Notes under the pieces: model-generated
What the model saw: only the letters and a program-made list of their open reading frames with translations
Databases searched by the model: none
What the model was told of the DNA's origin: nothing
Source: a virus
Direction: 5' to 3' (one strand)
Virus record (IMG/VR): IMGVR_UViG_3300030116_007036
Coordinates: 1-24,882 of that record
Length of the DNA: 24,882 nt
In this document: positions 1,622-15,584 of the stretch, piece after piece
Layout: each line of letters starts with the position of its first letter
Numbering within the stretch: position 1 is the stretch's first letter
Position numbers and translations under genes: made by a program

Positions 1622-1804
1622 TTAACTCTTTCGGTGGTTCCGAATCTCTTGGACGCTAACACGAATACCCTTACAGGATTTCGCTACCTCAGAGCAAACC
1701 TTACGGACACGTCGGCCCGCAGCATCGTTGCCCTTCTCGAAGCGCTCAAGATCCTCGACCGCAGCTTGCAGCCCCTCAATCATTTCTAATAAATCTGCTT
1801 TCAT
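1622..1804 (-). CDS. Histone H1/Hc1-like DNA-binding protein
   Basis: A 60-aa product starting MKADLLEMIEGLQAAVEDL and containing FEKGNDAAGRRVRKVCSEV (residues 22-40), then a basic end VQEIRNHRKS. The KGNxAAGxRxRKxxxE core followed by a K-rich helix is the hallmark of chlamydial Hc1-like and other bacterial histone H1-like proteins, which bind and condense DNA. It has its own GAGGAG about 11 bases upstream, inside the end of the small terminase gene. It shares its stop and frame with the 401-codon ORF, so it could be made alone or as that protein's C-terminus. Independent translation seems likely. Confidence 0.65.
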   Translation of the reverse strand: MKADLLEMIEGLQAAVEDLERFEKGNDAAGRRVRKVCSEVAKSCKGIRVSVQEIRNHRKS

Positions 1805-2827
1805 GGCTAATACTTCTCCTCTATGCGCAGAGCTTTCTTCTCTGCTGTTGTTTCCATGCCGCTCAAGACTTCGTAGATAGCCGTCGTCGAAGTCTTCGCC
1901 CGGTCGTCCAAGCCCCAGGTTTTCCGGTCCAAAAACGACACGTTCTTTACGATCTCCGATGCTACCTTGATCACCAGCAGCTGCTTGAACGGATCCTCGT
2001 TCGGATACGCCATAGCTCTCGCTAGTGCTTCGTTCATCATTTCCATCAGTGTGGAGGTCGCTGCCTTGTGCCTCGCTAACACTCCCTCCACCTCCGCTGT
2101 TACTTCGATCTCCGAGGTCTGGATCTTCTGCTCGATCACTCCCCTCGCCCTCTCCAGAATCGCGTCCGAGGTTAGACGAGTCGACCGCTGCCAATCCCCC
2201 GATTCTTTCCAGCGGTGGATAGTTCTTTCCGTTACTCCGTGCCTTACCGCCAGAGTCGCTACCTTCTCCCCGCTCTCGTACTCCGCCTGAATCATTGCTC
2301 GAAGTTCTGGATGGATTCTTCCCCCCGGACCTTTTGGCAACCTTTCGTTTAGAGGCAAGTCGGACGGGAGACTTGTAGATAGCTCCCCGCTTCTTGAGTT
2401 CTTTGATTTCTCCGCCATAGGTCAAATACTCCCTAATGTTCTCAGGTGTGTTCTCGTGCAGAATCAAGTGAGCGTCACCAAGAAGCTTCACGATCAGCTT
2501 CAATGCCTTAACATGGTCCTCAGTCTCACCAGGTTCGTTTCCTAGCGTGATAGAGGACTCCTCCTTATGATACCGCCGGAGACGCTCTACAAACATCCAG
2601 TGCTTCGGCCTGAGAGTTTTAGACGTGTGATACTGCGTCACATCTAAGACATTCCAAACCTCATCACGGGTAATCGTCTTCGTCGCTGAAACATTCTGAG
2701 CCAGGGTCATATTAGACTTCTGCCATTCATTGCAGCAATCCAGACTCATCTTAATCTGAGAGATGCACTCAGCGAGCAATCCCTCAACAAGATTAGAATC
2801 CAGAGTCGGTCGGAACTTATCGGACAT
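1622..2827 (-). CDS. 401-codon ORF: unknown N-terminal domain, disordered middle, histone H1-like C-terminus
   Basis: The ORF is open for 401 codons and starts with a strong AAGGAG four bases from ATG. Residues 1 to about 150 look like an ordinary folded protein (for example DEVWNVLDVTQYHTSKTL and HVKALKLIVKLLGDAHLIL) that I do not recognise. Residues 137-340 are read in a different frame from a probable small terminase gene and are very rich in Gly, Ser, Asp, Glu and Arg, as expected of an overprinted or non-coding frame. Residues 342-401 equal the separately startable histone-like protein. Either this is one real long protein with a disordered linker, or the upstream gene lost its stop and reads through. 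The N-terminal part is well supported as coding; the middle is not. Confidence 0.5.
   Translation of the reverse strand: MSDKFRPTLDSNLVEGLLAECISQIKMSLDCCNEWQKSNMTLAQNVSATKTITRDEVWNVLDVTQYHTSKTLRPKHWMFVERLRRYHKEESSITLGNEPGETEDHVKALKLIVKLLGDAHLILHENTPENIREYLTYGGEIKELKKRGAIYKSPVRLASKRKVAKRSGGKNPSRTSSNDSGGVRERGEGSDSGGKARSNGKNYPPLERIGGLAAVDSSNLGRDSGEGEGSDRAEDPDLGDRSNSGGGGSVSEAQGSDLHTDGNDERSTSESYGVSERGSVQAAAGDQGSIGDRKERVVFGPENLGLGRPGEDFDDGYLRSLERHGNNSREESSAHRGEVLAMKADLLEMIEGLQAAVEDLERFEKGNDAAGRRVRKVCSEVAKSCKGIRVSVQEIRNHRKS
1807..2418 (-). CDS. terS: Terminase small subunit-like protein (HTH)
   Basis: A 203-aa product in the frame shifted +1 from the surrounding 401-codon ORF. Residues 35-75 form a helix-turn-helix: EKVATLAVRHGVTERTIHRW, then KESGDW, the resolvase/transposase-like HTH found in many phage small terminases. 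After it comes a long helical region (residues 80-170, EIEVTAEVEGVLARHKAAT and onward) and a charged end. AGGGAG precedes the ATG by about 10 bases. Small terminases recognise the packaging site and load the large subunit. The large subunit lies a few genes downstream on the same strand, which supports the role. Other HTH DNA-binding functions are possible. Confidence 0.72.
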   Translation of the reverse strand: MAEKSKNSRSGELSTSLPSDLPLNERLPKGPGGRIHPELRAMIQAEYESGEKVATLAVRHGVTERTIHRWKESGDWQRSTRLTSDAILERARGVIEQKIQTSEIEVTAEVEGVLARHKAATSTLMEMMNEALARAMAYPNEDPFKQLLVIKVASEIVKNVSFLDRKTWGLDDRAKTSTTAIYEVLSGMETTAEKKALRIEEKY

Positions 2828-4764: not shown

Positions 4765-5231
4765 ACTTCCATCCACTGTATATGAAAGATAGACCCGAGC
4801 GTCCGTATGTTACCACTGAAGAAGTCTTCCCTGTTGAGGATGAAGATAGAAGAATGAACAGGGAAGAGGGGACCTGGGATGGCTTCAGGGTGTACACATC
4901 AATCGACATTGGCAAGTGCCAGCAGCTTGCAGTGTCCAGCTTTGGTGATTGGCATGGTCGATTCAAGCGTCAAGCCATCGGTCCTGACAGGTGGTATGAG
5001 ACAGCGGTGATTGTCGAAAGCCAGACAGCGTGGGGACCTGTCAGGGTGACCGAGGTTATGGGTGGCGTGTTCACCGATGACCTAACAGGAACCAAGGAAG
5101 GTGATGATGCCAAGGCTCTTGCAGTACACAGAAAGCATGTAGCTAGGTTGGTTGCTGAGATTAACACACAGCTAGATCATGGTGTAGATACTCAGTGTAT
5201 TCTTTCAGCGATTAAGAGACGCTATCAATAG
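4761..5231 (+). CDS. Hypothetical early protein
   Basis: A 156-aa product overlapping the preceding stop by four bases, with AAAGGGAGC a few bases before the ATG. It begins MNFHPLYMKDRPERPYVTTE with an acidic region, then a mixed alpha/beta body (TWDGFRVYTSIDIGKCQQL; WGPVRVTEVMGGVFTDDLTG) and a helical, basic C-terminus with AVHRKHVARLVAEIN. The family is not recognised. It is the last gene of the pair before a GC-rich hairpin. Confidence 0.78.
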   Translation: MNFHPLYMKDRPERPYVTTEEVFPVEDEDRRMNREEGTWDGFRVYTSIDIGKCQQLAVSSFGDWHGRFKRQAIGPDRWYETAVIVESQTAWGPVRVTEVMGGVFTDDLTGTKEGDDAKALAVHRKHVARLVAEINTQLDHGVDTQCILSAIKRRYQ

Positions 5232-7716: not shown

Positions 7717-7893
7717 ATGGATACACCCGATCAAGACCTATATTGCATTGCTTTGAGTGAGCTAGAGGTTCACATCATACACAGCCTGGTAAGCCAGCAG
7801 CTAGACAATGCTCACATAGAAAACAAGCGAGTGCTTGAGTCCCTTCTTAACCTGCACAAAACAACCAAGGAACTAACGGATGATCTACATTAG
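7717..7893 (+). CDS. Small helical hypothetical protein
   Basis: A 58-aa product starting MDTPDQDLYCIALSELEVHI. ATG at 7717 is preferred to the in-frame GTG at 7711 because AGGAA sits seven bases upstream. The rest is a single long amphipathic helix with a Leu/Lys pattern (NKRVLESLLNLHKTTKELTD). It overlaps the nuclease gene start by 14 bases. No family is recognised. It opens the replication and recombination module after the terminator. Confidence 0.65.
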   Translation: MDTPDQDLYCIALSELEVHIIHSLVSQQLDNAHIENKRVLESLLNLHKTTKELTDDLH

Positions 7894-8962
7894 GTATGTC
7901 CTAGCCAGACCCGTACTACCCAAGCCACCAAAGATTCTGAGTAGTAGTTCGGCTAGTAGAATCAGCAGTGCAAAGAATCAGGATACTACTGCAGAGCTAT
8001 ACCTTGAGGCACACAGTAACCTGGGCACTGAGCCTAACCCTGAGACGCTTGCCCACCTGCGTGACAGGGATACCTATGCATGGACCCATAGCATTACCTA
8101 CCCAGTAGAAGAGTCGGAAGTAATGCAGATGGGAGAGGAGCTGGGCACCATCACACGGGGCATGCGTATAGCTGACAACGAGGTGCCGCATCGTAACCTG
8201 TGGGCATGCACTCGTCCGAGGTGTGACTGGTCTGACCTGTGCCACGGCAATCCTAGTGGAGACATTGATAACTGGTGGGGTATCTCGACATCAGACTACG
8301 ATGGGCTGAGTAGCTACGTAGTTAGATACCAGGGCAGAGAAGACAAGCTACTTGAGCGTAACAAGCCAGGAAAGATTGTTACTGCTAGTGAGATACGGAA
8401 CTACTTAACCTGCCCACGCAAGTGGTACTTTGAGAATGTTAAGAAGGCAGCACGTAGCGAGAGATCGTATTCACACTATAGCGCCAGATGGAAAGGCAAC
8501 ATGGTTCACAAGTATGCTGAACTAATGGCGCTATCAGATATGAATAAGATTCATCATACAGATATTGGTCCTCAGTGGGACGAGTACCTGCAAGAGTACT
8601 CGGACCAGTTAACAGATGAGGATGAGAAGTCACAGTTAGCTATGGATGCTGTAGCCTGCGAGGCAGTAGCCCTGAAGATGTATAACCTGGCAAGGCAACC
8701 GCTCAACTCTGCACCGCATGTTCTCCAAGTAGAACATGCAGAGCAGAGATTCGCAGCAGTGCTTCCCGGTACAAAGACTTGGATTACATGTCAGCCTGAT
8801 CTGATCTGCAGAGACGGAAACGATATTGTGATTGTGGATTACAAAACTCTAAGCAGTTCTAACTTGGTGCGTGACGCTCAGAACTACAGACACTTGCCAT
8901 CAATGTATCTCTACGCATTGGCGGTAACTAAAGGCTTTGTTGCCAGGAAGGTAGAGCAATGA
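7880..8962 (+). CDS. PD-(D/E)XK RecB/Cas4-like nuclease with permuted Fe-S cysteines
   Basis: A 360-aa product. The nuclease motifs are clear: TCPRKWYF (residues 177-184), NMVHKYAEL (His210), QPDLI (Asp307), VDYKT (Asp320, Lys322) and AQNYRH...SMYLYA (Gln334-Tyr343), as in RecB- and Cas4-like exonucleases. Unusually, the cysteine cluster C110-x4-C115-x5-C121, which normally follows the core and pairs with the CPRK cysteine to hold an Fe-S cluster, lies before it, and the protein ends right after the QxxxY motif. The first 20 residues (MIYIRYVLARPVLPKP) resemble the beta strands that usually follow that motif. Neighbours Sak4-like ATPase, DUF669 and RuvC fit a recombination exonuclease role. 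The start overlaps the previous gene; the end overlaps the ATPase start as ATGA. Confidence 0.85.
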   Translation: MIYIRYVLARPVLPKPPKILSSSSASRISSAKNQDTTAELYLEAHSNLGTEPNPETLAHLRDRDTYAWTHSITYPVEESEVMQMGEELGTITRGMRIADNEVPHRNLWACTRPRCDWSDLCHGNPSGDIDNWWGISTSDYDGLSSYVVRYQGREDKLLERNKPGKIVTASEIRNYLTCPRKWYFENVKKAARSERSYSHYSARWKGNMVHKYAELMALSDMNKIHHTDIGPQWDEYLQEYSDQLTDEDEKSQLAMDAVACEAVALKMYNLARQPLNSAPHVLQVEHAEQRFAAVLPGTKTWITCQPDLICRDGNDIVIVDYKTLSSSNLVRDAQNYRHLPSMYLYALAVTKGFVARKVEQ

Positions 8963-9705
8963 ATCTATTTGAGAAAGTTGACTTTCATAAGACGAAGAAG
9001 GGGAAGATGCTAATGGTGTACGGACCTCCCGGTTCGGGCAAATCTACCTTTGCATCTCTCCTTGCTGCAGAGATGGGGATCAAGCAGGTCAACACAGTAG
9101 TCATCGACTTCGAGGTTGGCATGCGTGATGCGTTGGTGCGTGCTGATTGTCAGAGGACAGAGCTGTACGACCTTTCCGATCCCACCCCTGGGATGGGGGT
9201 GGAGATCGCAAAGTTCCTGCGCTCCCTGAGAAGTAGAGATGAGGTAAAGCTAGTGATCCTCGACACCTTGAGTGAGATGTGTTGGTCACTGCTTCGTGGC
9301 ATCTGCGGAACTAAACAAGCAACGCTGCCAATGTATGGTGAGCGGAAGCGCCAACTCAAGGAGATCCTTGTTGAACTAAGAAACTTAACGAAGTCAGGTA
9401 AGCATGTACTCGTACTTACTCATCAGACTGTAGGCGAAGTTGAAGGACTGCCCGGCTACTATGCACCGGAGGCACCTAAGAACGACCGAGCAGATGTGGT
9501 CGGGCAGTTCGATTTCGTTGGCAGGATGCAAGTCGCAACCAAAGCAGCGGCTGAGTATCTAGGTCTGAACGAGGGAGAACGATTCATTGATTACAGACAG
9601 GATCCTCAACAGGTATCGAAGTGCCGTTTCGATATGGATCCAGAGAAGCCGTACGTGTTTGTCCGCAATGCAGATGATGCACGTATATTTATCAATGCTC
9701 TATAA
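8959..9705 (+). CDS. Sak4-like RecA-fold ATPase / recombinase
   Basis: A 248-aa product with Walker A GPPGSGKST (residues 22-30), Walker B VKLVILDT (residues 97-103), a downstream HVLVLTHQT (residues 149-157) and a helicase-like beta core. The family is the AAA_24/Sak4 group of phage single-strand annealing or RecA-like ATPases, typically encoded next to DUF669 and a PD-(D/E)XK nuclease, as here. It likely mediates homology-directed pairing during replication. ATG overlaps the nuclease stop by four bases. The next gene follows after 11 bases. Confidence 0.85.
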   Translation: MNLFEKVDFHKTKKGKMLMVYGPPGSGKSTFASLLAAEMGIKQVNTVVIDFEVGMRDALVRADCQRTELYDLSDPTPGMGVEIAKFLRSLRSRDEVKLVILDTLSEMCWSLLRGICGTKQATLPMYGERKRQLKEILVELRNLTKSGKHVLVLTHQTVGEVEGLPGYYAPEAPKNDRADVVGQFDFVGRMQVATKAAAEYLGLNEGERFIDYRQDPQQVSKCRFDMDPEKPYVFVRNADDARIFINAL

Positions 9706-9716
9706 GGAGATACACA

Positions 9717-10127
9717 ATGAGCATTTTTGCAGAAGCATTCGAGTCAGCAACTGAAACCCCGTCATATGGCCCACTGCCTGATGGCGATTACGAAGCACAG
9801 TTGATTGAGGTAAACACCTCTGATCATCCTATTACTGGGGTGACTGCAACCAATCTAGAGTATCGCATTACTCAGGGAGACAATGCAGATCGCAGGGTCT
9901 GGGATAACGTGACGCATCGTGATGATACGATGTGGAAGGTAGCTAAGATCTGGAATGCGATGGGGATGAATGGTCAACCTACGGACTGGGCAGAGTTCTC
10001 TCTTAAGCTAAGCCAGCACTGCACTAACAAGCACTTTACGATTACCGTAAAGAACCGTGACTACAATGGTAAGACTTATACCAACGTAACCTCGGTTCGC
10101 TTGAACGAAGAGAAGCCTCCGTTCTGA
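9717..10127 (+). CDS. DUF669 phage protein, probable ssDNA-binding partner
   Basis: A 136-aa product. The sequence PLPDGDYEAQLIEV (about residues 19-32) followed by a beta-rich core with RRVWDNVTHRD and WKVAKIWNAMG is typical of DUF669. These proteins sit beside Sak4-type ATPases and probably act as their ssDNA-binding partners. The last residues NEEKPPF resemble the acidic SSB tip. AAGGAG sits 7 bases before the ATG. The stop overlaps the RuvC-like gene start. Confidence 0.85.
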   Translation: MSIFAEAFESATETPSYGPLPDGDYEAQLIEVNTSDHPITGVTATNLEYRITQGDNADRRVWDNVTHRDDTMWKVAKIWNAMGMNGQPTDWAEFSLKLSQHCTNKHFTITVKNRDYNGKTYTNVTSVRLNEEKPPF

Positions 10128-10678
10128 TGGCTATACTGGGTATTGATCCAGGGTTCTCCAGTCTAGGCACGGCCGTCCTCTCCCTCCAGGGAGGGGGCGG
10201 CTCTGCTCAGACCTTCGATGAAGCAAACGTGTTTCGTACGCAGAAGGATAAGAAGAAGGTACTTGTGTGGGATGACAACGTAAAGAGATGCCAACAGATA
10301 CACACGTACCTCTCCGAACTGTGTGACATAAACAATTTTATTATGTTTGCGATTGAAGCAGAGAGCTGGACACGTATGCCAAGCGACAAGCAACTAGGGC
10401 TGGCACGAGGTGTCATCTACTCAGTTGCTGCATCCTTTGACATTCCTATTGTTCAGATAACAGCGAAGGATGTGAAGCACTTCCTTACTGGCTCAAAGAA
10501 AGCCAGCAAGGAAGATGTTCTTACTGCGCTAACTGAACGTTCTAATCTGGAGAAGAAACTTGTCCACCTACCACGAGGCCAATGGCAACATGCGGCAGAT
10601 GCAGCAGGATGTGCACTCTACGCATGGGAATGCAGCGAACTCTCAAGACTATATCGAAGAACACTCCTCTCTACGTAA
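10127..10678 (+). CDS. RuvC-like Holliday junction resolvase
   Basis: A 183-aa product with a RuvC RNase H-fold signature: GIDPG (residues 5-9, catalytic Asp7), FAIEAES (residues 74-80, Glu77 or Glu79), KDVKHFLTGSKKASKEDV (residues 114-131, junction-contacting region) and QHAADAAGCAL (residues 154-164, His155 and Asp158). It would cut branched DNA that arises in replication and before packaging. The ATG overlaps the DUF669 stop by one base (TGATGG). Its last ~90 bases overlap the helicase gene in a different frame. Confidence 0.88.
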   Translation: MAILGIDPGFSSLGTAVLSLQGGGGSAQTFDEANVFRTQKDKKKVLVWDDNVKRCQQIHTYLSELCDINNFIMFAIEAESWTRMPSDKQLGLARGVIYSVAASFDIPIVQITAKDVKHFLTGSKKASKEDVLTALTERSNLEKKLVHLPRGQWQHAADAAGCALYAWECSELSRLYRRTLLST

Positions 10679-11921
10679 CACTGCAGAACCTGTAGAGAGA
10701 CAGCTATTCAGTAACCTGATTTCATCTATAGATATTAAAGAGTCAGAGTTACAGGGGTTGCGGGTTGATGACTTCTGTACGCATCAGAACCAGCTAGTCT
10801 TCGATGCTATATGCAAATCAATCCACAAGAATAATCACTGCACAATCTACAGTGTGTCTGAGATACTCAGGGAGCAAGGCTCACTATACACAGCGGGTGG
10901 CGAGAACTACCTGATTGAGCTATCCGAAGCAGGTATCGGTCAATCAGATCCCCTCAAGGATCTGATTGCCCACGTAAAGAAGTACTCTCAGCTCAGAAGG
11001 ATTGAGCGTGCAGCACGCATGACATTGCGTGCTGTTGAGGGAGACAGTGTTGACCTAGCTACTGTTCAGCAAGTTACACGTCAGATGCTGCAGCAGATTG
11101 AGAAAGAAAAGAAGAAGCAGCCAAAGACCCTATCTGCATTTGATGGCATCACAAAGAAAGCCGCTGATACATTCAAGCCCGCTATTGTAACAGGCTGGCC
11201 CATCTTAGATGCATCAGTAAAGCTATCACCTGGCAGACTCGCAGTGCTTGGTGCGAGACCTGGCATGGGTAAGACCACACTTGCTACGCAGTTGTCAGCA
11301 CAGGTCCTGAAACATAATCGTGAAAGTCATGTGCTTTATTGCAGCGTAGAAATGGACGTAGCAGAAATCGGAGTAAAGGCACTGTCTGCATTATCTAAGA
11401 CAGATTGTGTTACTCCGTTTCAGAATGACAACCAGGAAGCAATAGATTTAGTCAACACCAGGGCTGGACATTACTCGCAGATATTGAGTAGACTTGCTGT
11501 CTTTTACGGTACCCGTCTCGATGAGCTAATCAACATCGCAAACTATCTGCACAAGGAAGTACCACTGAAGCTAGTGGTATGTGACTTCATCAGCAGTATG
11601 TCTCCTGGTGACAAGTACGGAACCAGGAGTGAGGCTATTGGGCATGTATCAAAAGCACTGAAGCAGCTAGCACGGGATCTACAAATCCCGGTGCTAGCCT
11701 GCTCTCAGCTTAACAGAGGAACCGGAGCTAACAGGGCACCAACTATGAAAGACCTGCGTGACTCAGGTGAGATTGAACAGGACGCTGACATCATCATGCT
11801 CCTGCACAAAGAAGATCCCGAGGATGATAGGACCCTTCTTATGATCGAGAAGAACAGGTTCGGAACCAACACTGTCCTGCATCTCGATACTCAGTTCCAG
11901 CATCATAGATTCTCTTTCTAA
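10590..11921 (+). CDS. dnaB: DnaB-like replicative helicase
   Basis: A 443-aa product from the ATG at 10590. A TTG at 10560 or a later start at 10599 is possible; no strong ribosome-binding site decides. The N-terminal domain begins near PVERQLFSNLI. The C-terminal RecA-like domain has Walker A GARPGMGKTT (about residues 221-230), YCSVEMD with the conserved Glu, Walker B LVVCDFIS, CSQLNRG (H3), SGEIEQDADIIMLLH (H4), and KNRFGTN with the arginine finger. This is a hexameric 5'-3' helicase that opens the replication fork. No primase domain is fused to it and none is seen nearby. Confidence 0.92.
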   Translation: MRQMQQDVHSTHGNAANSQDYIEEHSSLRNTAEPVERQLFSNLISSIDIKESELQGLRVDDFCTHQNQLVFDAICKSIHKNNHCTIYSVSEILREQGSLYTAGGENYLIELSEAGIGQSDPLKDLIAHVKKYSQLRRIERAARMTLRAVEGDSVDLATVQQVTRQMLQQIEKEKKKQPKTLSAFDGITKKAADTFKPAIVTGWPILDASVKLSPGRLAVLGARPGMGKTTLATQLSAQVLKHNRESHVLYCSVEMDVAEIGVKALSALSKTDCVTPFQNDNQEAIDLVNTRAGHYSQILSRLAVFYGTRLDELINIANYLHKEVPLKLVVCDFISSMSPGDKYGTRSEAIGHVSKALKQLARDLQIPVLACSQLNRGTGANRAPTMKDLRDSGEIEQDADIIMLLHKEDPEDDRTLLMIEKNRFGTNTVLHLDTQFQHHRFSF

Positions 11922-12000: not shown

Positions 12001-12705
12001 TTAACGCAACATAGACCCACGTCCCCGCATCATATCCTTGAACCTGTCAAGCATAGATCGAGATGCACCTCCACGTCCTTTCTCCTTGGAGATACGAGCA
12101 CGGTTCTCAACATCCCTTTTACGCTCCTCAGCGGTCTGAGGCACAGTGCCACGACCAGCAGGAAAACTAAGTCCACGTCTCTTGGTCTCAACCTTCGGAG
12201 TCTTGCCTGCCTGCTTCTTTGGCGTCTTACTGGTTTTAGGCGTTTTGTCTGCGGGATTTTCAGTTTTCTCGCCCGCTTCCTCGTTCTCCTTCATTGCCTC
12301 GGCGACATTCTTTGCAGCTTTTTGCCTTACAAAAGGCTTGGTCCCACGAATGTTTAACATGGCTCCGGCACGGATTTTATTGGCATCCTTAATCCCTTTC
12401 CCTGTCTTGGGATTATATGGATTCAATGCCATCAACTTGCTGACTGTAGTGCCCAGTCTCTTGGCAATACCAGAAAGGGTATCACCACGACGGATGCGAT
12501 AGGTGTTACCTGATGGCATTGGAGCATCACTTCGTTTCTTACCTAGCTGAGCACGCAACCTGCCAGATTTGCCACGAACAAACTTAAAACGCTTGCGTTT
12601 CTTTCCAGCTTTCTTTGACTCAGCAACTCCGATGCGACCGGACTCCTTCATCCGCTCCTCAACTAGTTTGTCTATCTTGCGAGTAGGTGTTTCTTTGCGA
12701 GCCAT
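12001..12705 (-). CDS. LysM-domain basic protein
   Basis: A 234-aa product with a very basic first 60 residues, a LysM at about residues 69-119 (YRIRRGDTLSGIAKRLGTTV, then LMALNPYNP and IRAGAMLNI), and a Lys/Thr/Pro-rich tail. LysM binds peptidoglycan or other GlcNAc polymers. No enzyme domain accompanies it, so the protein may target lysis factors or be virion-associated. The start is in a TAATG overlap with the 59-aa gene. It is the last gene of the late block, facing the helicase gene. Confidence 0.85.
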   Translation of the reverse strand: MARKETPTRKIDKLVEERMKESGRIGVAESKKAGKKRKRFKFVRGKSGRLRAQLGKKRSDAPMPSGNTYRIRRGDTLSGIAKRLGTTVSKLMALNPYNPKTGKGIKDANKIRAGAMLNIRGTKPFVRQKAAKNVAEAMKENEEAGEKTENPADKTPKTSKTPKKQAGKTPKVETKRRGLSFPAGRGTVPQTAEERKRDVENRARISKEKGRGGASRSMLDRFKDMMRGRGSMLR

Positions 12706-14210: not shown

Positions 14211-15205
14211 CCGTTCCTGCCGATCACAATACCTGCATTGCGAGCAATCTCATCAATCGTAAGGTGCCTGGTCCACGCTCTAAACGTGTCTATCTCACCT
14301 TGAGCAAAGTTGTTTATATTGGCAGCAGTACCAATCCAGTAAACACGTTGTGTGACATCAGCGAGATTTCGCCTTGGCGGATAGTCGAAAGTAATAGTGC
14401 CGGTGCCAGTATAATTAGATCCAAGCATACTGGTATCACCAAAGCTAAAGGTGTCTGCACTTAACCTTGTAATTGGAAGCGTTTGCCCATTTAGCATGGT
14501 GCCATACGGGCCGGAAGCTAAACCTGAGAATGTTACAAACATATTGCTAGATAAGTTGTGACCAGTGCAAGTAACTACTCCTGGGTTAGCAGCAGTAATA
14601 CCAGTGATTGTTCTGGTTTGATTTTTTGTAGTAAGTATCTCGGAGCCATCTTTATAAAGGGTGACATGGCCGTTTGTTGGCCCATTTGTTATGGTGTAAT
14701 TTACAGCAAGGTGAGTCCACTTATCTGCTTCAATGTTTACACCAGATGCAAACTGCAATGACTGACTAAAATTTTGTACATTCAAGCCCATGTCGCCGCC
14801 GTCAGACCTAGGGCTAACTACTGTATGGTAGCCTCCATATCTTCTAGCTGCATTAACAGCAGTTGGTCTGACTGCTACTTCAAAGCATCTGTTTGTGATA
14901 AACATACCCCCGCCTAAATCTTCATACCCATTCAGCGGATTCGTTGCGAAGTTAGAGTATTTATATAGCGCAGCGCCACCGCCATCTACTCCTTGTCCTG
15001 TACCGCAGAAATCGCCAACACCATCAAAGTTTGGCCAGTCCCCAGCGGACATGTGCATAATACCAAAGTCAATATCAACACCAGTTAGGTTCGCCAGGTT
15101 GTACCATCTGAGGTTGTCACTATCCCCAGATGCACGCTCAAAACGCAGACCCAGATTGCCATTAGTCAGAGGACGTTTACGATTTAAACTGCGACGCCTA
15201 GCCAT
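14207..15205 (-). CDS. LamG/concanavalin-like protein with inserted FCCH-like domain
   Basis: A 332-aa product. Start at 15205 (MARRRSLNRKRPL) is preferred to the longer in-frame start at 15262, which would overlap the endolysin by 65 bases. A LamG-type carbohydrate- or protein-binding fold begins around residue 108 (CFEVAVRP), includes KWTHLAVNYT (162-171) and TLYKDGSEIL (182-191), and resumes at YWIGTAANINNFAQGEIDTF (about 289-308). Between them, residues ~198-273 (ITGITAANPGVVTCTGHNL; LNGQTLPITRLSADTFSF) look like the FCCH-type insert seen in phage tail fibres. Likely a virion surface or receptor-binding protein. Confidence 0.78.
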   Translation of the reverse strand: MARRRSLNRKRPLTNGNLGLRFERASGDSDNLRWYNLANLTGVDIDFGIMHMSAGDWPNFDGVGDFCGTGQGVDGGGAALYKYSNFATNPLNGYEDLGGGMFITNRCFEVAVRPTAVNAARRYGGYHTVVSPRSDGGDMGLNVQNFSQSLQFASGVNIEADKWTHLAVNYTITNGPTNGHVTLYKDGSEILTTKNQTRTITGITAANPGVVTCTGHNLSSNMFVTFSGLASGPYGTMLNGQTLPITRLSADTFSFGDTSMLGSNYTGTGTITFDYPPRRNLADVTQRVYWIGTAANINNFAQGEIDTFRAWTRHLTIDEIARNAGIVIGRNG

Positions 15206-15584
15206 TCCAACGAGCCTTCTTGGGACGGATGTCATAATGCACAAATGTATTGTACAATCCAAGTCCGCCTTCAGGAATGCGCTTGGAACTTACTAGGTCC
15301 TCAATAGCTGCATGCAACTGTTGAGGCTTCATGCCTTTAGCCTGCAAGTCAGCAGCAGTTCCCAGCTTATGCTGCGAATGAGTAGAACCACCCACATTTT
15401 TATTGTGTTCCTCGCAACGGTAAGAAGAAGTAATCTTAATCGGGACATTAACAAGGTCCCTCACCTGCTGCAGCACCCAGGCTAGGTGCCTGGTTGCTGC
15501 CTTGTTCGGGGGCATACCTAGGCATGTGCCACACTTGCAGTAGAACTCACGAGGTCTGAAGTTTCGAGGATACCCGTCGTTCAC
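15198..15584 (-). CDS. Endolysin: peptidase M15 family
   Basis: A 128-aa product with the M15 zinc motif SQHKLGTAAD (His72, Asp79) and a second metal ligand in FVHYDIRP (His116), plus N-terminal FYCKCGTC resembling the CKCG of M15_3-type proteins. It would cut D-Ala containing cross-bridges or termini in peptidoglycan, helping lysis or, if virion-borne, entry. It starts at GTG in a GTGA overlap with the 42-aa gene. There is no signal peptide, so a holin would be needed; a holin-like gene lies downstream in the same block. Confidence 0.88.
   Translation of the reverse strand: MNDGYPRNFRPREFYCKCGTCLGMPPNKAATRHLAWVLQQVRDLVNVPIKITSSYRCEEHNKNVGGSTHSQHKLGTAADLQAKGMKPQQLHAAIEDLVSSKRIPEGGLGLYNTFVHYDIRPKKARWNG

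Follow-up and report, generated by a model that had tools for sequence, protein, structure and literature searches.

The nuclease gene and its surroundings

The stretch of viral DNA analysed here (referred to as the window) comprises 24,882 nucleotides of IMG/VR record IMGVR_UViG_3300030116_007036. It contains an intact reading frame with an ATG start codon, which codes for a putative iron-sulfur nuclease of the PD-(D/E)XK type (Table 1). The stop codon of this gene and the start codon of the downstream gene overlap in the sequence ATGA. Related nucleases are encoded on two further viral contigs, namely L001 (IMG/VR 3300044301_004812; 79% identical to the window protein, end to end) and L006 (IMG/VR 3300030330_002704, 40 kb; 42% identical). 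These two and the window protein are referred to as the permuted proteins; members of the family with the usual motif order are termed canonical, and their N- and C-terminal halves are termed N-half and C-half.

Table 1. Coordinates of genes, protein segments and predicted key residues in the window.
Feature	Position	Strand	Remark
Small ORF, 60 aa	7711..7893	+	Overlaps the start codon of the nuclease gene; does not resemble nucleases
Putative permuted PD-(D/E)XK iron-sulfur nuclease	7880..8962	+	360 aa
Residues 1-124, predicted C-half	7880..8251	+	HMM, hhalign
Residues 125-165, junction, predicted old C-terminus joined to old N-terminus	8252..8374	+	
Residues 166-360, predicted N-half	8375..8959	+	PF12705, PHROG_1218, HMM, hhalign
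C110, predicted cluster ligand	8207..8209	+	Kept in window, L001, L006, canonical members
C115, predicted cluster ligand	8222..8224	+	Kept in window, L001, L006, canonical members
C121, predicted cluster ligand	8240..8242	+	Kept in window, L001, L006, canonical members
C178 (CPRKW), predicted cluster ligand	8411..8413	+	Corresponds to N-terminal Cys of canonical members
H210 (GNMVH), predicted active-site His	8507..8509	+	Alignment
D307 (CQPD), predicted catalytic Asp	8798..8800	+	Alignment
D320-Y321-K322, (D/E)xK motif	8837..8845	+	Alignment
S341-M-Y-L-Y345, degenerate QxxxY	8900..8914	+	Alignment with L006 and canonical members
Sak4-like annealase/recombinase	8959..9705	+	phrog_124, E 5.5e-26; start overlaps nuclease stop
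DUF669 / phage SSB	9717..10127	+	PF05037, phrog_378
RuvC-like Holliday junction resolvase	10127..10678	+	PF02075, phrog_159
DnaB-like helicase	10560..11921	+	PF03796, E 1e-45
401-aa ORF	1622-2827	-	N-terminus resembles an L006 ORF; C-terminus histone H1-like Hc1, E 1e-10
203-aa ORF	1807-2418	-	Resembles HTH/terminase small subunit; wholly inside the 401-aa ORF, different frame
LysM protein	12001-12705	-	
M15 peptidase	15198-15584	-	Endolysin family
Giant ORF, 2676 aa	15709-23739	-	Two stretches tested (~1,009 and 913 aa), without PHROG match

Outside the nuclease region, the 401-aa and 203-aa ORFs are possibly an overprinted gene pair, and the genes of the LysM protein and the M15 peptidase are probable lysis genes. 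None of the window proteins that were scanned belongs to CRISPR adaptation.

Active site and cysteine motifs

In the second half of the nuclease, PF12705 matches residues 168-353 (E 2e-18) with 67.5 bits, compared to a gathering cut-off of 22 bits. The N-half of PHROG_1218 is found there as well: residues 165-349 align with positions 8-185 of the 364 profile positions (E 3e-16). Residues 1-124 gave nothing significant in Pfam or PHROG; at this level, a nuclease is seen in the second half only. The score for the CRISPR Cas4 equivalog TIGR00372 was 19.2 bits and thus below the curated cut-off of 65.

Residues 1-124 comprise a strand that corresponds to the one after the QxxxY helix of canonical members, a KPPK..DTT..Y region, and a cluster of three cysteines. 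Residues 166-360 contain the first Cys, the H, D and D-x-K residues and the QxxxY helix, and the chain terminates right behind this helix. The original prediction had placed C110, C115 and C121 in front of the nuclease core, which the reading frame bears out. Together with C178, these cysteines are invariant in all three permuted proteins and align with those of canonical members. They form the one-plus-three pattern (C-x2-4-C-x5-C) of the iron-staple nucleases AddB, Cas4 and Dna2. The RecB-type residues H210, D307, D320 and K322 are likewise conserved in three of three permuted proteins.

It had further been claimed that all motifs of the family are present. This holds for the cysteines, the H, the D and the D-x-K motif; the QxxxY motif, in contrast, is degenerate. 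The Gln column is occupied by Ser in the window (S341) and in L001 and by Gln only in L006, so that merely Y345 of the motif is retained in the window nuclease. Q334, which is perhaps the Gln that had been meant, is replaced by a His in L001. In the Cas4 enzyme Pcal_0546, the exchange of the equivalent Gln by Ala nearly abolished activity (PMC4176176); the activity of the window nuclease may therefore be altered. A more drastic explanation is that catalysis was lost and that the protein now assists Sak4 in a structural or DNA-binding role. The Ser in two of the three permuted members would fit this role, and in an archaeal virus a Cas4 homologue is reported to have become a nucleocapsid protein (PMC4625639). 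However, all three members possess the residues equivalent to H210, D307, D320 and K322, and L006 has kept the Gln, which makes a complete loss of catalysis distinctly unlikely.

Both halves of the canonical family are found in swapped order

A tblastn search of phages and plasmids with the native window protein gave no match. When half-queries were used, the real match was Serratia phage Tlacuache, which gave entry to the canonical family; matches to Typha and Pseudomonas 5399 were chance hits on the wrong strand and were rejected. Starting from Tlacuache gp38 (L015), 119 phage records and 42 viral-contig loci with the usual order were collected. A canonical profile was built from 15, and then from 42, non-redundant proteins of canonical order.

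With the 42-member profile, window residues 12-126 correspond to profile positions 189-299 (26.8 bits) and residues 166-327 to positions 9-151 (25.2 bits). Two such domains in swapped order were detected in three of three permuted proteins; the E-values of these two-domain matches were computed for Z=1. In a rotation scan, each sequence was rotated in silico in steps of five residues and the best single profile match was recorded. With a cut at about residues 135-165, one continuous match spanning profile positions 9-299/300 was obtained. The scores thereby rose from 26.8 to 59.5 bits for the window protein, from 20.9 to 44.3 bits for L001, and from 18.8 to 39.2 bits for L006, whereas canonical controls showed no gain on rotation. 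The public PHROG_1218 profile behaved in the same way: the rejoined sequence scored 68.8 bits over positions 10-330, compared to 55.8 bits for the second half alone. This gain of 13 bits, and the 26.8 bits obtained with the C-half of the 42 relatives, identify the first part of the protein as the C-half of PHROG_1218. In the 40-kb L006 record, the same profile was matched in two swapped pieces, with positions 275-334 upstream and 8-187 downstream. The order N-half then C-half of PHROG_1218-type proteins is therefore reversed in the window nuclease, which consists of a C-half followed by an N-half.

The half-by-half alignment that had been proposed as a check was carried out with hhalign. The first half aligned with canonical C-halves (probability 94.9, E 5e-8; N-halves 0.3%) and the second half with canonical N-halves (84%, E 7.5e-6; C-halves 0.2%), as had been expected for a permutation.

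An alternative explanation of these matches is that the nuclease core is truncated and has acquired, by gene fusion, an unrelated Cys-rich domain at its upstream end, whose resemblance to canonical C-termini is convergent. The first half alone has no significant match in PHROG, and at the level of BLAST it shows negligible similarity to the canonical proteins, as this alternative would predict. Yet the profile similarity extends over 110 columns in all three permuted proteins, and the elements KPPK, DTT..Y, Pv, RN..C and CDW.DLC occur in the right order. Moreover, the profile of canonical C-halves matched the first 145 window residues with 33.1 bits, and about 1,500 scored shuffles reached at most 6.0 bits. 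For the first halves of the permuted proteins the scores were 24-33 bits, compared to a shuffle maximum of 6-8 bits (about 1,500-1,700 scored per protein) and to at most 4 bits for other ORFs of the same loci. A fusion with an unrelated domain is thus very unlikely.

We therefore regard the window nuclease as a phage iron-sulfur exonuclease of the PHROG_1218 type, Cas4/RecB-like, that has undergone circular permutation in nature, and we assign a probability of roughly 90% to this reading of the sequence. By the alignments, the new termini are located after the QxxxY helix and ahead of the next strand.

Independent copies and selection

L001 and L006 exhibit the same rotated order as the window, followed by genes for Sak4, SSB, RuvC and DnaB; in both L006 and the window, the nuclease gene is preceded by a DUF932-like gene. 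A motif scan of viral contigs detected the start motif YIRYVL(A/S)RP on the L001 and L006 contigs only, and scans of genome contigs yielded no relatives. Among BFVD entries, A0A516LBA7 (365 aa) can be aligned sequentially over nearly its full length with 37% identity, and for this reason it very likely has the same permuted order. The viral entry A0A516L0S8 (152 aa) matched about half of the structure model (147 columns, 25% identity, E 3.5e-4); it is possibly a split or half-length form of the window-type nuclease.

An assembly or binning artefact, in which a chimeric contig rotated the gene, is so improbable that we exclude it: although every permuted copy originates from metagenomic contigs and the L001 contig begins only 8 nt ahead of the nuclease start codon, three records of 79% and 42% protein identity share the seam and the neighbouring genes on independent contigs, the coding sequence is unbroken across the seam at a dN/dS of about 0.08, and the L006 copy lies inside its contig with its own ribosome-binding site (AAGGAGG before the ATG at 4917) and a terminator-like hairpin upstream. 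The original prediction of a natural permutation is thus supported by both the swapped profile matches and the independent contigs.

The nuclease gene is under purifying selection. For the window and L001, dN/dS was 0.084 overall, with dS near saturation; the values were 0.126 for the first half and 0.064 for the core. The junction (residues 125-165) is the most constrained stretch in this comparison (pN 0.05). It follows from the low dN/dS and from this conservation that the seam is a working part of the protein and not a product of decay.

Polarity and origin of the permutation

Among the fetched loci that contain both halves, the order C-half before N-half occurred only in the window, in L006 and in re-fetched copies, and all others had the N-half first. 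L001 was just under the threshold of this order scan, though significant with the canonical profile. A tree calculated after rotation of the sequences groups the permuted proteins in a single clade with a support of 100/100. The branch of this clade is long and attaches between PHROG_69, the outgroup, and those members of the PHROG_1218 family that were sampled. Every fetched outgroup has the N-half at the N-terminus; the permuted order is therefore derived and one origin suffices. The permutation probably arose once, in the ancestor of these phages. Five loci (L034-L038) encode longer proteins (ORFs of 495-756 aa) that match the N-half profile only, ahead of further C-terminal sequence.

It is plausible that the permutation originated by tandem duplication, in-frame fusion and loss of both ends. 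The records of the window, L006 and L001 contain no second copy of the nuclease, and neither long DNA repeats left over from a tandem duplication nor a remnant or intermediate of this route were found. The contig end of L001 had been considered as a mark of a tandem repeat; this was dropped, as its first bases do not repeat the 3' end of the gene.

Structure model

An AlphaFold model was computed from an input of 41 rows; 28 of these were canonical N-halves and 10 were C-halves, each half being entered as a row of its own. It is of moderate quality (pLDDT 65.8, pTM 0.63); with three sequences only, the pLDDT was 39. Values below 50 were observed for residues 100-109, which are beside C110, and across the junction, for residues 122-167. 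The model shows the expected helices and strands, among them a strand at residues 2-9 that would come after the QxxxY helix in the canonical order. VIA-align reported AdnA (Z 7.2, 141 residues), the Cas4-family protein ACE1 (6.8), RecE (5.9) and RecB (5.4), and these nuclease matches mostly cover model residues 198-356. Support for the core fold is weak, since Z values of 5-7 are tied with those of unrelated helical matches. Foldseek found no significant match of the model in the PDB, and a sequence search of the PDB with the window nuclease found none either.

Implications for fold and function

Solved structures of Cas4 show a single Fe-S cluster that is held by four cysteines, one of them N-terminal and three C-terminal (PMC4176176), and the iron staple known from AddB and related enzymes is a cluster of this one-plus-three type (PMC3466216). 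As the N- and C-terminal cysteines of Cas4 share one cluster, the old chain ends are expected to be close in space, and the fold would thus lend itself to permutation. The ancestral chain would have consisted of the N-half (Cys, H, D, E-x-K, QxxxY) followed by the C-half (strand, helices, Cx2-4Cx5C). By the sequence, its termini are now linked covalently by the conserved stretch of about 40 residues. Neither the fold nor the active site should be disrupted when the ends are joined and the chain is opened at a surface loop instead.

To judge by motifs and synteny, the most likely activity of the nuclease is the degradation of a single strand at the ends of DNA. The resulting single-stranded DNA would be passed to the adjoining Sak4 and SSB, with RuvC and DnaB encoded next; Sak4 is an annealase that is stimulated by its cognate SSB (PMC5928155). 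The window nuclease thus probably resects DNA for the adjoining recombination module. The four predicted cluster ligands lie within 69 residues of sequence in the permuted chain. It is conceivable, if rather doubtful, that the permutation is functional and not neutral: local ligands, and a free C-terminus that directly follows the QxxxY helix and is coupled to Sak4 by translation, might allow the Fe-S module to assemble first, the nuclease to dock onto Sak4, or both.

If confirmed, the permuted proteins would constitute a natural experiment on the need for an Fe-S staple to hold two distant chain ends, because these ends are covalently joined here. Furthermore, standard annotation with linear profiles reads proteins of this kind as truncated, so further permuted proteins of phages may hide in metagenomes.

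Comparison with known systems

Among enzymes, natural circular permutations with good support are uncommon. In the literature searched, the coverage of which is incomplete, no report of a permuted iron-staple (Cas4/AddB-like) nuclease was found, and permutations within the nuclease fold were limited to cases of restriction subunits, if present at all.

The CRISPR Cas4 proteins SSO0001 and Pcal_0546 and AddB have in common with the window nuclease the RecB-like core, the QxxxY region and the arrangement of one N-terminal plus three C-terminal cysteines of the ancestral chain, but they are not permuted, and the window nuclease scores far under the TIGR00372 cut-off. The PHROG_69 or actinophage "Cas4 family exonucleases" (TP-84, Gordonia phage Soups) share the RecB-like core and the N-terminal Cys; they are more distant, with a shorter C-half and canonical order. 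The PHROG_1218 exonucleases, such as gp38 of Serratia phage Tlacuache and gp44 of Pseudomonas phage PMBT14, share the motifs, the four cysteines, the long C-half with its KPP..DT region, and the Sak4/SSB neighbours. In several annotated phages (Yersinia P744, Pseudomonas PMBT14 and Lebethron, Desulfofustis LS06, Bacillus BSTP12, Weizmannia Youna2, bajarodcaudo virus 5), the canonical nuclease is followed by Sak4 or an AAA/RecA-like ATPase, either directly or past small ORFs, and in some canonical phages by a DUF669/SSB gene, an arrangement as in the window. All these PHROG_1218 exonucleases have the canonical order, whereas the window nuclease is rotated, with the loop that follows the QxxxY helix as the point of rotation.
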